From the IMG/VR virus record IMGVR_UViG_3300035670_000925, positions 1 through 30,868 of that record: a DNA stretch of 30,868 bases; one strand, given 5' to 3'. How positions within the stretch are numbered: position 1 is the stretch's first letter; each line of letters opens with the position of its first letter. Both the position numbers and the translations under genes were made by a program. The notes under the pieces are model-generated. The model saw nothing but the letters and a program-made list of their open reading frames with translations, made no database searches and was not told where the DNA came from. Source of the stretch: a virus. Below, one piece after another: positions 1 to 27,168 of the stretch.

Positions 1-108
1 TCATGTCGGTCATGTCACCGGGGGTGGGGGGCGGGGAGGGTTCTTTACTTATAGAGAGAGAGTGATCTATTTCCCCCCTTATGGCGACATGACCGACATG
101 ACCGACAA
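1..108. repeat. Inverted iteron-like repeats, candidate replication origin inside the primase gene
   Basis: Positions 1-16 are the exact reverse complement of 86-101 (16 bp, 69-nt spacer). Each arm is built from a 9-bp unit, GACATGACC: on the right two full copies plus a partial third (86-108), on the left almost two copies reaching the window edge. The spacer holds a G-run block (20-40) and a purine/AT-rich stretch (41-72). Read in the primase frame the arms encode different peptides (VGHVGHV and GDMTDM), so the conservation is at DNA level. Lambda offers a precedent for iterons inside a replication gene. Calling it an origin is inference. Confidence 0.55.
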
Positions 109-2542
109 CTTCACACTGTTTAGCAAGTTTTTGGGCAGTTTGTGGATGAACTTCCAACAGCGGTGATGGTTTGCCTCGGGTGGGCGTGAAGCTGATCGGG
201 AAGTTATCCACAGGCCGAACCCATCCGTTTTCCACAAGTACGGTCAGTGGGCCTCGGATGGCGTCGAGGTCTGGGAAGCGCCTTCGGTTAGCTCGCATGG
301 CGTCTCGGATGGTGAATTGGGTGTGGTTGGTGCGGATCGCCCAATCAAGGATTTGGCGGGCCTGGACGATGTTCTCGTCGATTCCCCATTGGTCTGAGAT
401 GGCGATCATGTGGGCGAGATAGTAGTTGCCGAGGCTGATGGCGTCTCGGATGGTGTGGGCGCCGACTTCGTCGCCGGGTTGGTGGTTGGAGAGGTGGAGG
501 AGGCCGGCGATGCGGATAATGTTGGCTCGGAGTTTGCCGACCCATTCGTTCAAGTGTTCGAGGTCGTGGCCGGGCCCGCAGCGGTTCTCAAGTTCCTGGT
601 CCCAGTGGGCGAAGGTTTCGTCGGCTTCGGGATGAAGGGTGAGGTTGCGGGTTTTTCCGTGGTGGTTGTCGGCGATGTCGGTGAGGTGGGCTTCGTAGCT
701 GGTTTGGGCGTGGGGGTCGGTGTTGGAGTGTCGGAGGCGGTCTCTGGTGCCGACGTTGCTGGCGGGTTGGCAGAGGAGGAATCGGGCGGTGAGGCCACGT
801 CCGGCGAAGGCTTTGCGGGCGCCGATTTCGTTGAGTGTGTGGGGTTGGATGGTGGTGATGACGACGAGATTGGCGCTGGGGATGTTGATGGGGTCTCGTT
901 TGATGCGGTCGACGACGTATCTGCCGCCTGACCAGGCTTCGAGGTATAGGTCAAGGTTGATTTGGCCTTCGCTGTAGAGGCCGGCCATGCGGTCGAAGAT
1001 GCCGCCTTCTGAGCTGATGACGGCGATGTTGCCTCCTGCTTCGGCGAGGGCAACGCCGAGGGCTTCGGTGGTGGCGTCGTCGGCGAGGAGGCGTCCTGAG
1101 GGTGTGTGGGCGTGTTCGGCGAGGTCGTTGATGGTGTCGTTGAGGAGGTGTTGGGTGACGAGGGCTTCGTCGCTGCCGGGTGGGATTTTGGCGAGTTTTT
1201 CTTCGAGGTCTCGGAGGCGTTTGTCGAGGATGCGGCGGGTTGATTCGTTGTGGTGTTTGTTTTGTTGGGCTTGTTGGAGGCGTCGGATTTCGAGTTGTTC
1301 GAGGGGTGCGAACATGGCGGCTTTGGCGGGTGATTTACCTGCGGAGGGTGGGAGGGCGACGGAGGCGTAGATGTTGAGTGGTTGTGTCCAGTTGTTGCGT
1401 CGGTAGTGGATGCGGGTGTTTCCGAGGGCGCAGACGGAGAGGGCGCCGAGGGCGAGGGTGTTGGGGAGGTCGTTGGCGACTTGGAGGTTGTCGGCAATTT
1501 GTTGGGTGTAGTTGGTGATCCAGGTTGGGAGGGTGTGGGTGGGGAATTCGGGGATGCTGGTGGGGGTGTTGAGTGGGGTGGGTTCGGGCCAGTCGTCGTG
1601 AGCGTTTTCGCTAACTGGCGGTGGGGTGATGGTGTTGCGGGTTTCGTTGCGGATGGCTCGAGCGGCTTCGCTGCGGTCGCCGTTGTGGTGTCGGCAGGCG
1701 TAATAGCCGAAACGTGAATAGGTGCCTTCTGGGAGCCATGGGAGGCTGGATGTGAAGACGGTGAGGGCGTCTCGGCCTTGGTGGCCGATGGTGGCGCTGG
1801 TGCCGGTGTTTTTGCCGGGTCGTGTCCAGTGTTGTTCGCCGGTGCGGTCGGTGTGGTCGTGTTGCCAGCCGTCGGCGGTGAGCAGTTCGGGCCAGGTGTG
1901 GGTGTTGTTGTAGTTGGCGGCTGGCGAGTCGTCGAGCTCGTCCCAGAAATCATTTCGTCGTGGTGTGGGGCTGGGTGTGGTGGCGGGTTGTGCGGTGAGG
2001 AGATCAAGGAGCCATTGGGGGGCGTCGGCGAGGGGGAGGTCGTCGGGGTGGTGGTCGATGATCCAGGTATAGGGATGGCCGTTGGGGTGGAGTGTGGGTG
2101 GGGCCAATACTTGGCCGCCGGTGCCTCGGATGTCTATGCCGGGGCCGAGTCTGCGGCCGGCGTCGTTGCTGATCGGGTGTGGGGCTCGGTAGTAGAGGTG
2201 GGTGCCGCCGGAGCCGGTGGCGACTTGCCAGGTGTCGGGGAGTGGGCCGTGTTGGGCGGTAAGTTGGGCGAGGGTGTCGTTGCCGGAGGCTTCGGGGTGG
2301 TGTTCGTCGATGTCGATGACGAAGAGGCCGTTGTGGCCGGTGGCGATGCCGATGCCGTGGTCTCGGTAGAGGCCGGTGTACCAGTTGGTGATGGTGTCGG
2401 GGTTGGTGGTGGCGTGGGTTTGCCAGGCGGTCATGGGTGGCCGTTTATGGCCGGGTTTGATCGGGAGGATGTGGAGGCCATGGGCGGCGAGTTGTAATGC
2501 TTCGTTGAGTGTGGGGTCAGGGTTGTGGGCGGTTTCGGTCAC
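1..2542 (-). CDS. Bifunctional primase-polymerase / DUF3987-like helicase, C-terminus cut by window edge
   Basis: The frame is open from GTG at 2542 to the left edge (at least 847 residues). GGAGGTG lies just upstream of the GTG. Residues 10-190 look like a prim-pol domain: the catalytic-type DID is at 77-79, SGGTHLYYR at 111-119 and GIDIRGTGGQV at 135-145. Near residue 400 a P-loop-like PPSAGKSPA, and near 510 SSEGG, match the DUF3987 type of phage helicase/primase. The family synthesises primers and unwinds DNA at the phage fork. Codons end in C unusually often (ACC, GCC, CTC, AAC), more so than in the tail genes. The last visible residues are low complexity and are encoded by the iteron/G-quadruplex region at 1-108, so the true C-terminus is unknown. 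The role is well supported; the exact helicase class is less sure. Confidence 0.88.
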   Translation of the reverse strand, partial: MTETAHNPDPTLNEALQLAAHGLHILPIKPGHKRPPMTAWQTHATTNPDTITNWYTGLYRDHGIGIATGHNGLFVIDIDEHHPEASGNDTLAQLTAQHGPLPDTWQVATGSGGTHLYYRAPHPISNDAGRRLGPGIDIRGTGGQVLAPPTLHPNGHPYTWIIDHHPDDLPLADAPQWLLDLLTAQPATTPSPTPRRNDFWDELDDSPAANYNNTHTWPELLTADGWQHDHTDRTGEQHWTRPGKNTGTSATIGHQGRDALTVFTSSLPWLPEGTYSRFGYYACRHHNGDRSEAARAIRNETRNTITPPPVSENAHDDWPEPTPLNTPTSIPEFPTHTLPTWITNYTQQIADNLQVANDLPNTLALGALSVCALGNTRIHYRRNNWTQPLNIYASVALPPSAGKSPAKAAMFAPLEQLEIRRLQQAQQNKHHNESTRRILDKRLRDLEEKLAKIPPGSDEALVTQHLLNDTINDLAEHAHTPSGRLLADDATTEALGVALAEAGGNIAVISSEGGIFDRMAGLYSEGQINLDLYLEAWSGGRYVVDRIKRDPINIPSANLVVITTIQPHTLNEIGARKAFAGRGLTARFLLCQPASNVGTRDRLRHSNTDPHAQTSYEAHLTDIADNHHGKTRNLTLHPEADETFAHWDQELENRCGPGHDLEHLNEWVGKLRANIIRIAGLLHLSNHQPGDEVGAHTIRDAISLGNYYLAHMIAISDQWGIDENIVQARQILDWAIRTNHTQFTIRDAMRANRRRFPDLDAIRGPLTVLVENGWVRPVDNFPISFTPTRGKPSPLLEVHPQTAQKLAKQCEVVGHVGHVAIRGEIDHSLSISKEPSPPPTPGDMTDM
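20..40 (+). other. G-quadruplex motif
   Basis: Four consecutive G-runs of 5, 6, 4 and 3 bases are separated by single T, C and A bases. This fits the canonical intramolecular G-quadruplex pattern with one-base loops. It lies between the two iteron arms and next to an AT-rich tract. It is visible directly; formation and function are not shown. Confidence 0.6.
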
Positions 2543-2618
2543 TGGTGGCACCTCCGAGTGCGGCGATAAGGATGAGACTGTAGACCACGCAGACGGCGGT
2601 CAGGATGAGGTCAATCAA
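2517..2618 (-). CDS. Putative 33-aa single-TM peptide
   Basis: A TTG start at 2618 overlaps the stop of the resolvase-like gene, with AGGGAAACC before it. The frame reads a short acidic start, then a hydrophobic stretch (LILTAVCVVYSLILIAAL), then GGATSDRNRPQP. It ends inside the first codons of the primase gene, overlapping it by 26 nt. One membrane helix is likely. It fills the otherwise unexplained 68-bp gap between its neighbours and would couple their translation. The TTG start and small size make it a modest call. No family is recognised. Confidence 0.4.
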   Translation of the reverse strand: MIDLILTAVCVVYSLILIAALGGATSDRNRPQP

Positions 2619-19342: not shown

Positions 19343-20731
19343 TCAGGTGTTCTGCAGCAAGCGGAAACCGAGGTCGTTGACCGAGTCGAAGCCGTGGCGG
19401 GCGTAGGCGAACCATCCACGCTGACCCGTCGGGCGGGCGTTCGTGGTGCCGAACAGGTGCGAAACCAGTTCGACGGTCATGCCTGCACGCTGGGCGATCA
19501 CGAAGTTGGAGAAATCTCCAACGACGAGGATGTTGGCGGCGCCGGTGGTGCCGGTGAACTCGGGGGCGTAGTCCGTCGTGACGACCGGGCGTCCGAACAG
19601 GTTGCCGATGCCACCCTCGGCCAGGTTGACCGTGTAGTAGGCGCCGGTGTCGTTCGCCGAGAAGGAACGAATTTCGTTCTCCACGCTCGTCGACATGACC
19701 CACGATGCACGGGCCTTGTAACGCTCCGGCAGCGACTTCCACACCTTGAGGAGGTCAACAGCGCTGAACGTGCCGTCGGTCGTGACAACCACTTCGACGT
19801 TCGTGTTGGCGTCAAGGGCCGTGAAGATACCGACCGGGGTGGCTCCCGTCATCGACTGGCTGGCGACGAGGTCGACGTAACCCTGGTCGAGGAGACGGCG
19901 CATCTCGTCAGCAAAGCCGGGGTAGTCCTGGCCGACTTCGATCGAGTAGGGGATGAAGCCACGGGCCGTGTAGATGTCGATGGTGGGCTGGGCGAGCGTC
20001 GGAGCGTCGTCGGACACTTCGGCGGCTTCGCTGTCGTAGCTCCACGACACACCAGCGGATGAGACACCCTTCCAGTTGTCGGTGGTGACGGTGACGATGC
20101 GGGCAAGGTTCAGGATCGGAGCGTCAGCAGCACCCGAGGTAAGGATGATGGAAGGATCGATCAAAACGGGAACGCCGTATCCACCTGCATCGTCGGTTCC
20201 TTCGCTCATCGCACGGAATTCGTTGAGTGCCTGAGCCTCTTCAGCCGTGTAAGCGGGGTTGACCTGGGTGACACCCTTGACGAACGCCGAACGGTAGGCG
20301 TCATTCTCGGTGAGAACGAGACGCTTGGCGATCTTGCCGCCGTCGGTGTTGCCGTTGCGGGTGTTGATGAGACGGTCGACGTGGTCGAGCTGCTTGGGGG
20401 CGAGGTCTCGGCCTTCGGTCTCAATGATCTTGAGTGCGGCGTCACGAAGTTCGCCACGGCTGGCCGAACGAACGTCAACGCTCGTCTCGGTGCGCTTCAT
20501 CACCTGCGGGGAGTCGAAGCCGGCGGCACGCTCGGTGACGACAGCCTTCGCAGCCTCAATGCGGGCGAGGCGGGCCTCGGTGGCCTCGAGCTCAGCCTTG
20601 CGGGCCTCGAACTCGTCCAGGGCGGCCGACAAGCGGGCGTCCTGCTCTTCTGTGATTTCCTCGGCGGCGGCAAGAGTCTCGATTTCGGACTTGAGAGCCG
20701 CAACGGAGGAACGGAGCTCTTCGAGCTTCAT
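19343..20731 (-). CDS. Major capsid protein, HK97 fold, with N-terminal scaffold domain
   Basis: Residues 1-75 are a charged coiled coil (EELRSSVAALKSEIETL..., EFEARKAELEATEARLARIEAAK) equivalent to the HK97 delta/scaffold domain. It is probably removed by the protease encoded upstream. The rest shows HK97-capsid features: an ALNEFRAMSEGTDDAGGYGVP segment, SWSYDSEAAEVSDDAPTLAQPTI, and an end WFAYARHGFDSVNDLGFRLLQ. The 462-residue length includes the scaffold. AGAGGAAACA gives a strong ribosome site. A hairpin follows the gene. Confidence 0.92.
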   Translation of the reverse strand: MKLEELRSSVAALKSEIETLAAAEEITEEQDARLSAALDEFEARKAELEATEARLARIEAAKAVVTERAAGFDSPQVMKRTETSVDVRSASRGELRDAALKIIETEGRDLAPKQLDHVDRLINTRNGNTDGGKIAKRLVLTENDAYRSAFVKGVTQVNPAYTAEEAQALNEFRAMSEGTDDAGGYGVPVLIDPSIILTSGAADAPILNLARIVTVTTDNWKGVSSAGVSWSYDSEAAEVSDDAPTLAQPTIDIYTARGFIPYSIEVGQDYPGFADEMRRLLDQGYVDLVASQSMTGATPVGIFTALDANTNVEVVVTTDGTFSAVDLLKVWKSLPERYKARASWVMSTSVENEIRSFSANDTGAYYTVNLAEGGIGNLFGRPVVTTDYAPEFTGTTGAANILVVGDFSNFVIAQRAGMTVELVSHLFGTTNARPTGQRGWFAYARHGFDSVNDLGFRLLQNT

Positions 20732-25386: not shown

Positions 25387-25716
25387 TCAGGAAATCTCCG
25401 AACCAAACAACTGGAACGTCATATCAGCGTTTGACGCATAAACCACTACGACATCAGTCGCCGCCAACGTCGCACCGAACGTCAATAGCAAAGTATCCTT
25501 CGAAGCGATAGGGGCATCATAAACCACAAACTGCTTATCATCGTCGGCGGCTCCGGCAACCTTGATCCGCACACGAAATGTGCCGGCGGCAGCGTTCTTG
25601 TTGCACACCGACAACGTCGAGCAGACAGCCTCGGTCGCTGAGGGCACGGTATAAAGCGTGGTGTCGGTTGTGGCTGACGGCTCGACCTGGCCGAGCACCT
25701 TGTAAACGGTTGCCAT
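25387..25716 (-). CDS. Small virion structural protein, 109 aa, aquatic-phage family
   Basis: ATVYKVLGQVEPSATTDTTLYTVPSATEAV, then VCNKNAAAGTFRVRI and SKDTLLLTFGATLAATDVVVVYASNADMTFQLFGSE, is a pattern seen in many aquatic phages, where the protein is a beta-sandwich structural or appendage component. It follows the collagen-like gene by 3 bp and precedes the glycine-rich fibre, so it may cap or link fibres. The exact role is unknown. Confidence 0.75.
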   Translation of the reverse strand: MATVYKVLGQVEPSATTDTTLYTVPSATEAVCSTLSVCNKNAAAGTFRVRIKVAGAADDDKQFVVYDAPIASKDTLLLTFGATLAATDVVVVYASNADMTFQLFGSEIS

Positions 25717-25719
25717 TAC

Positions 25720-27168
25720 TTATGCTCCCATGAGTAGGAATGGATTGAAAGCGCTGGCATCAAGGCCGTCAGCACCTTGCGGTCCCTGTGGACCCTGTGC
25801 ACCCGTTTCGCCTTGCGGGCCTTGCGCGCCAGTATCACCTTGGGCGCCGGTCGCACCCTGAGCGCCTTGCACTCCTGTATCACCTTGCGGGCCTTGTGCT
25901 CCAGCATCACCCTGAGCACCTTGAGCACCTTGAGCTCCAGTGTCACCCTGTGGTCCCTGTGCGCCAGTAGCGCCTTGAGCGCCAGTGTCGCCTTGCGGGC
26001 CTTGCGCGCCAGTGTCGCCTTGTGCGCCGGTTGCACCTTGAGCACCCTGAGCGCCAGTGTCGCCCTGTGGGCCTTGTGCCCCGGTAGCGCCTTGAGCGCC
26101 AGTATCGCCCTGTGCTCCTTGGGCGCCAGTGTCACCCTGTGCGCCCTGAGCGCCAGTGTCTCCCTGAGCGCCTTGCACTCCTGTATCACCTTGCGGGCCT
26201 TGAGCGCCAGTATCTCCCTGTGCGCCTTGAGCACCAGCGTCTCCTTGCGGGCCTTGGGCGCCGGTGTCACCTTGTGCGCCGATTGCACCTTGAGCGCCCT
26301 GCACACCTTGGGCGCCTTGGGCTCCTTGAGCACCTGTATCACCTTGAGGGCCCTGAGCGCCGGCGTCACCTTGTGGGCCTTGTGCCCCTGTGGCACCCTG
26401 GACACCTTGGGCGCCTTGGGCTCCTTGAGCGCCACTATCACCTTGTGCTCCTTGCGCACCCGTGTCTCCTTGTGCGCCCTGTGCACCGGTATCACCCTGA
26501 GCTCCTTGGGCACCAGTGTCGCCCTGAGCGCCTTGGGCCCCGGCGTCACCTTGTGGGCCTTGGGCGCCGGCATCACCTTGCGGGCCTTGAGCGCCTGTGT
26601 CGCCTTGGGCGCCGGTCGCACCCTGAGCTCCTTGGGCACCAGTGTCGCCCTGGGCTCCTTGTGCGCCGGCATCGCCTTGTGGGCCTTGGGCGCCGGTGTC
26701 TCCTTGAGCACCTTGTGGGCCGCTCGAGCCTTGTGGCCCCGTATCGCCTTGCGGGCCCTGAGCGCCAGTGTCGCCCTGAGCGCCAGTCGCACCTTGAGCG
26801 CCCTGAGCGCCAGTGTCACCCTGTGCGCCTTGCGGGCCGGTCGATCCTTGAGTTCCTTGCGGGCCCTGCGCACCAGTATCTCCTTGAGCACCCTGAGCGC
26901 CAGTTTCACCTTGTGCACCTTGCGGCCCGGTAGCGCCCTGTGCACCAGTGTCACCTTGCGGGCCTTGAGCGCCAGTGACACCCTCAGCACCCTGCGGGCC
27001 GGTCGATCCCTGCGGGCCCTGGGGACCAGGAACAGTCGAATCGGCACCCTGGGCACCCTGAGCACCCTGCGGTCCCTGCGGGCCCTGACCCGACAATGAG
27101 ATTGAAGCGGAGACGTTTTCTTCGGTGACCGTCACCTTCGGCGGCTGATCGTTCACCTGAAAACTCAT
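25720..27168 (-). CDS. Collagen-like fibre protein, 482 aa
   Basis: A short N-terminal domain ([22 protein letters not shown], about 28 residues) is followed by some 430 residues of uninterrupted Gly-X-Y triplets, chiefly [12 protein letters not shown] and GVQ. A C-terminal cap ([17 protein letters not shown]) ends the protein. Triple-helix fibres of this kind project from virions and aid trimerisation or receptor contact. Pro occurs at X and Thr at Y in GDT, which lacks mammalian-like hydroxylation sites but resembles the Thr-bearing triplets glycosylated in bacterial BclA. The start makes an ATGA overlap with the preceding gene. Confidence 0.9.
25770..27090 (-). repeat. Collagen-triplet coding repeats (9/18-bp units)
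   Basis: The DNA is made of degenerate 9-bp (Gly-X-Y) units, often in 18- or 27-bp higher-order blocks coding GPQGDTGAQ-type strings. Synonymous changes vary between copies, but the Gly codon is kept throughout. Repeat number is likely to change by recombination and to complicate assembly. Confidence 0.85.

Follow-up and report, generated by a model that had tools for sequence, protein, structure and literature searches.

Inverted repeats within the 3′ end of a phage primase-helicase gene raise the question of whether the gene for an initiator also contains the site at which that initiator acts. The stretch of DNA analysed here (the window) is an entire virus record of 30,868 bases that encodes a terminase and a portal protein of its own. 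The gene in question joins a PrimPol domain to DUF3987, for which a helicase function has been predicted where it is fused to primases (PMC5862659), and its 3′ end is truncated by the left edge of the contig (Table 1). An earlier note on this DNA had proposed a candidate replication origin inside the primase gene, made of iterons and a G-quadruplex. Our analyses indicate that the element is very probably the phage's replication origin, placed inside the initiator gene at its 3′ end; the arms and the GC skew support an origin of the iteron type, while the G-quadruplex part of the proposal is unsupported. Elsewhere in the window, a WhiB-like regulator (PF02467, 2956-3462) suggests an actinobacterial host, and a long collagen-like ORF with GPQG/AQGD repeats (25716-27168, minus strand) has a counterpart in the closest relative, the viral locus L005.

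Table 1. Positions of the putative origin, its parts and the initiator gene in the window
Feature	Position	Strand	Remarks
Initiator gene	2..2551	-	PrimPol (PF09250) at residues 18-180 and DUF3987 helicase (PF13148) at residues 357-719
Codons for predicted disordered C-terminal tail	2..109	-	Residues 815-850; nearly coextensive with the putative origin segment
Codons for predicted C-terminal winged helix	140..376	-	Residues ~726-804; candidate iteron reader
Distal iteron arm	1..16	-	Full unit at 8-16, partial unit at the contig edge; orientation opposite to that of 86-103
G-runs GGGGGTGGGGGGCGGGGAGGG	20..40	+	C-runs on the coding strand; adjoin the distal arm
Phased pyrimidine tract CTCTCTCTCT	53..62	-	Coding strand; candidate melting or single-strand site
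GGGGGG run	73..78	-	Coding strand; forms an inner stem with the C-run; adjoins the proximal arm
Proximal iteron arm	86..103	+	Two GACATGACC units, which read as GGTCATGTC twice on the coding strand
Consensus DnaA box TTATCCACA	204..212	+	Sole box in the window; same place in relatives

The arms form a perfect 16-nt inverted repeat (1-16 and 86-101), as the earlier note had described, which lengthens to 19 nt at 95% identity (1-19/83-101); the facing repeats are separated by 70 bases. The 9-bp GACATGACC units from which the arms were said to be built are present at 8-16 (minus strand), 86-94 and 95-103 (both plus strand), and the only further copy counted in the window is a distant one at 19692. 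The two arms also encode different peptides in the one reading frame, GHVGHV and DMTDM, in agreement with the same note. Ungapped inverted-repeat scores of at least 16 at the window's spacing were obtained for 2/394 control gene ends and 0/71 dinucleotide shuffles, and the window's inverted repeat exceeds chance.

Because the gene is cut by the contig edge, only part of the distal arm is present in the window, which is without most of that arm and all sequence past it. Counterparts of the window's two ends lie ~1.4 kb apart in L005, so the missing distal half of the element is most likely an assembly gap rather than a true absence. Contig ends fall inside the element or within ~120 nt of it at position 1 of the window and at the right ends of L093, L095 and L096; a possible cause is the interruption of assembly or sequencing by strong hairpins.

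The protein of L005 is 84% identical to that of the window, and its gene has a 25-nt perfect inverted repeat in the same position, in which the unit GGTCATGTC is changed to GCATGTCAT in both arms. We compared the element across a wider set that started from 80 viral loci, found in a search with divergent relatives, and was extended by a second viral search and a genome search (117 loci used, 71 after dereplication at 80%). Inverted arms scoring at least 15 are found around the DUF3987 stop codon in 33/71 dereplicated loci, compared with 4/394 control gene ends and 0/71 shuffles, though the loci come from a protein search and are mutually related, so that these counts are not independent events. 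Ungapped arms scoring at least 12 are missing from 27/71 loci, in some of which the arms are gapped or the contig ends at that point. Two E. coli YfjI loci and one Pectobacterium phage show no element by eye.

In the layout that recurs in many phages and some plasmids, inverted sets of 9-bp iterons flank a spacer of 60-120 nt at, or just past, the 3′ end of a DUF3987 gene. A period of 9 bp dominates the repeats in 30/43 loci. Nearly all arms of the fused PrimPol clade lie within the coding 3′ end, with L109, where they are just past the stop codon, as the exception. In an AT-rich clade that includes phages of Streptococcus and of the gut, arms with TTTTGTCCC or TGTCAC-type units are placed just past the stop codon. 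The same layout is present on one Streptomyces and one Bartonella plasmid, and inverted iterons also follow the PrimPol/helicase gene of an Arthrobacter phage. Arms are not a trait of all PrimPol replicons: where PrimPol is combined with a different C-terminal part, arms scoring at least 12 are found in 10/40 loci, several of these ten being near-duplicates or short hairpins. Two actinobacterial loci (L007, 4557-4670; L172, 6009-6137) differ from the phage clades in that iteron polarity is apparently reversed, with GACA facing left and TGTC facing right. The 3′ ends of the primase genes of L092 and L096 contain additional iteron clusters, in-gene and upstream of the left arm, that yield long SVSSVSRVS peptide repeats. 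No origin is annotated in the matching Javan191 record, and none of the annotated phages resembles the putative origin DNA of L005.

The earlier note had tied its proposal to conservation of the arms in close relatives, where we find them kept as arms with their sequence altered. Left arms have a median match of 18 to their own right arm and of 5 to the arms of other loci, and the own right arm is the best match in 30/42 loci (all selected for having arms). Iteron sequence differs among phages, yet both arms match within each phage, so that they change together.

A candidate for the protein domain that follows these changes is provided by an AlphaFold2 model covering residues 310-850 (pLDDT 89). 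In a fold search of the PDB, its ATPase fold was matched best by MCM helicases (E 4.8e-5). Superposed over its full length it fits MCM poorly (TM ~0.2-0.4), so that the label MCM-like refers to a local fold match. A sequence search of the PDB returned nothing useful. Elements in the order H-E-H-H-E-E at 417-492 of the modelled segment form a predicted winged helix, and pLDDT falls below 50 at model positions 506-531 and 534-541; the tail of the last ~36 codons, which the putative origin segment encodes, is presumably disordered. Similarity between iterons correlates with similarity between winged helices when the ATPase core is controlled for (partial r 0.29, Mantel p 0.001). This covariation, a correlation only, fits a reader domain and suggests that winged helices diverge in step with the iterons (replicon specificity).

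The covariation also bears on the possibility of a stem-loop (cruciform) origin as proposed for pRN1, at which the initiator would read an extruded hairpin and not the 9-bp iteron sequence. The arms together with the G-run and C-run fold as a long hairpin (DNA z -5.1 in the window, -9.3 in L005 and -9.4 in L092), and in both pRN1 and phage BIP-1 a stem-loop is located just downstream of the gene for a primase-helicase-winged-helix protein (PMC4234260). We nonetheless consider such an origin improbable, as the arms consist of tandem 9-bp units whose sequence covaries with the winged helix, extra unpaired units are found on one side in L092, L094 and L096, and the arms of L097 are mismatched. 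An iteron-type origin remains our preferred reading.

Inspection of the spacer led to a revision of two further claims of the earlier note. The four G-runs reported there are present at 20-24, 26-31, 33-36 and 38-40. The canonical four-run G-quadruplex motif is missing from the 84%-identical relative and from the other clade members scanned, 13 in all, and as a feature of the window only (1/14) it was rejected as a conserved element. In several close relatives an inner stem is formed by a G-run that follows the left arm and a C-run that precedes the right arm. The spacer had also been described as AT-rich. Between the arms of the window it is only 43% AT, and values are 37-56% in the window's clade and ~60-80% in most loci of AT-rich genomes; an AT-rich spacer as a general rule was rejected, failing in the window's clade. 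A second property of the spacers is the presence of tracts with a 4-nt (sometimes 3-nt) period, such as ACTCACTCACTC, CTATCTATCTATCT and TTATTTATTTATT. Compared with real segments of the same loci, period-4 tracts reach a rank-p <= 0.05 in 26/40 cases; they exceed shuffles in 21/40, and periods 3 and 5 do so in 0-4 loci. Tracts of at least 10 nt are pyrimidine-rich on the coding strand in 21/25 loci. The window's own period-4 tract is confined to CTCTCTCTCT and is weak (p = 0.07).

GC skew, a check that the earlier note had named, provides a line of evidence outside the element itself. The cumulative minimum lies near the element in 6/7 phage records, in which large ORFs are mostly on one strand; after detrending it falls 0.4-1.1 kb downstream in these six, an offset for which a minimum exactly at the element was rejected. 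The seventh record (G011) has weak skew and a minimum that does not fit. Across the ends of the window, skew flips from -0.33 (right) to +0.38 (left), and the minus strand is coding at both. Consensus DnaA boxes (TTATCCACA) are ~140-fold enriched near the element, with 11 in 42 kb compared with 1 in 551 kb elsewhere. When 19 clade records were scanned whole, 13 of their 17 boxes were located at the element and the other 4 in two records. About half of the near clade has DnaA boxes, and L005 and L101 have two that form an inverted pair outside the arms.

These observations also weigh on two explanations that do not involve initiation. One is an RNA element, either a terminator or a hairpin that regulates the initiator mRNA, for which the position at the gene 3′ end and a strong RNA fold (z -5.0 and -9.7) could speak. 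The loops are 60-120 nt long, the sequences read show no U-tract following the arms, and DnaA boxes and the skew minimum are left unexplained; we regard this reading as highly unlikely, and an RNA hairpin was rejected on the grounds that arm mismatches are not mainly G-U (13/49). The other is a packaging (cos/pac) or recombination site instead of an origin. Terminase genes are located within ~2.5 kb after the element in L005, and several contigs terminate near the element; against this, the element lies beside a DUF3987 gene in the plasmids L007 and L200, whose annotated stretch includes no terminase, and the DnaA boxes and the covariation of the units with the initiator point to initiation. 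The likelihood of such a site seems very small.

A comparison with known systems reveals precedents for parts of the layout. The lambda origin, like those of the window's clade, has iterons inside the initiator gene; lambda O is not a helicase, and its direct iterons lie on one side of an AT-rich region, unlike the element described here. Iterons combined with a G4 and an open AT tract inside a prim-pol/helicase gene had been viewed in the earlier note as what would be a different design. The design is not entirely unlike known ones, as the layout matches the PICI/SaPI origin (PMC6092414). That layout has been reported in "no other known bacterial replicon", and the C-terminal domain of the SaPI Rep helicase is reported to read the iterons (PMC6092414, PMC7581432). 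The origins of SaPI Rep and SCCmec Cch2 are found directly 3′ of the helicase gene (PMC7581432). As in PICIs and SaPIs, the putative origins overlap or directly follow the initiator helicase gene (in-gene in the window and L005, just past the stop codon in the AT-rich clade), and two iteron sets flank a melting region, here a candidate one. The present systems differ in that the initiator is a PrimPol-DUF3987 protein of phages and plasmids and not a Rep of the SaPI/PICI family on a satellite, in that the window's clade has iterons inside the coding sequence and a spacer that is not AT-rich, and in the addition of DnaA boxes and a period-4 tract.

SCCmec Cch2, whose C-terminal domain has been tested for binding repeats, is similar in being a helicase that binds repeats directly downstream of its own operon, and differs in the helicase itself and in its short direct iterons (PMC7581432). 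The nearest primase-helicase case is pRN1, with its stem-loop (PMC4234260). It shares a protein with primase, helicase and winged helix, an inverted element of ~100 bp on the 3′ side of the gene and close to it, and similar stem and loop sizes (21-nt stem, 58-nt loop); by fold (z -5 to -9) a stem-loop of this type is present at the 3′ end of the primase-helicase gene in the window, L005 and L092. pRN1 differs in its SF3 helicase, in that no iterons are described and in that its element is downstream of the gene rather than inside it. PICMI satellites use a DUF3987 primase, and the text searched contains no description of iterons (PMC10803314). We found no description of a DUF3987 origin in the open-access literature searched.

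We infer binding, melting, loading, priming and a role for DnaA, which could be arranged as follows. The PrimPol-DUF3987 protein would bind the 9-bp iterons through its C-terminal winged helix, and the oppositely oriented iteron sets would nucleate two MCM-like helicase rings, face to face. Host DnaA on the flanking TTATCCACA box or boxes might help opening. Melting of the spacer, which includes the short phased pyrimidine tract, would be followed by loading of the helicases onto the strands and by priming of both forks by the fused PrimPol.

More tentatively, DUF3987 initiators could define a large class of self-contained replicons in which the origin has a tract for single-strand recognition phased at four (sometimes three) nucleotides. 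Such a tract would be like the DnaA-trio in role, its reader would be an MCM-like helicase, and some members would also recruit host DnaA; we see this as possible but less likely than not. Common among phages, DUF3987 (YfjI) genes are also present in plasmids and satellites, and an open-access search suggests that their origins are undescribed. Inspecting the helicase gene's 3′ end for inverted 9-bp repeats offers a rule for finding such origins, and the origin layout reported for PICIs would now extend to phages and plasmids. Odd repeated C-terminal peptides of these initiators (GHVGHV, GQKGQKGQK, SVSSVSRVS) would be explained as origin DNA that is translated, and DUF3987 loci would constitute testable minimal replicons.
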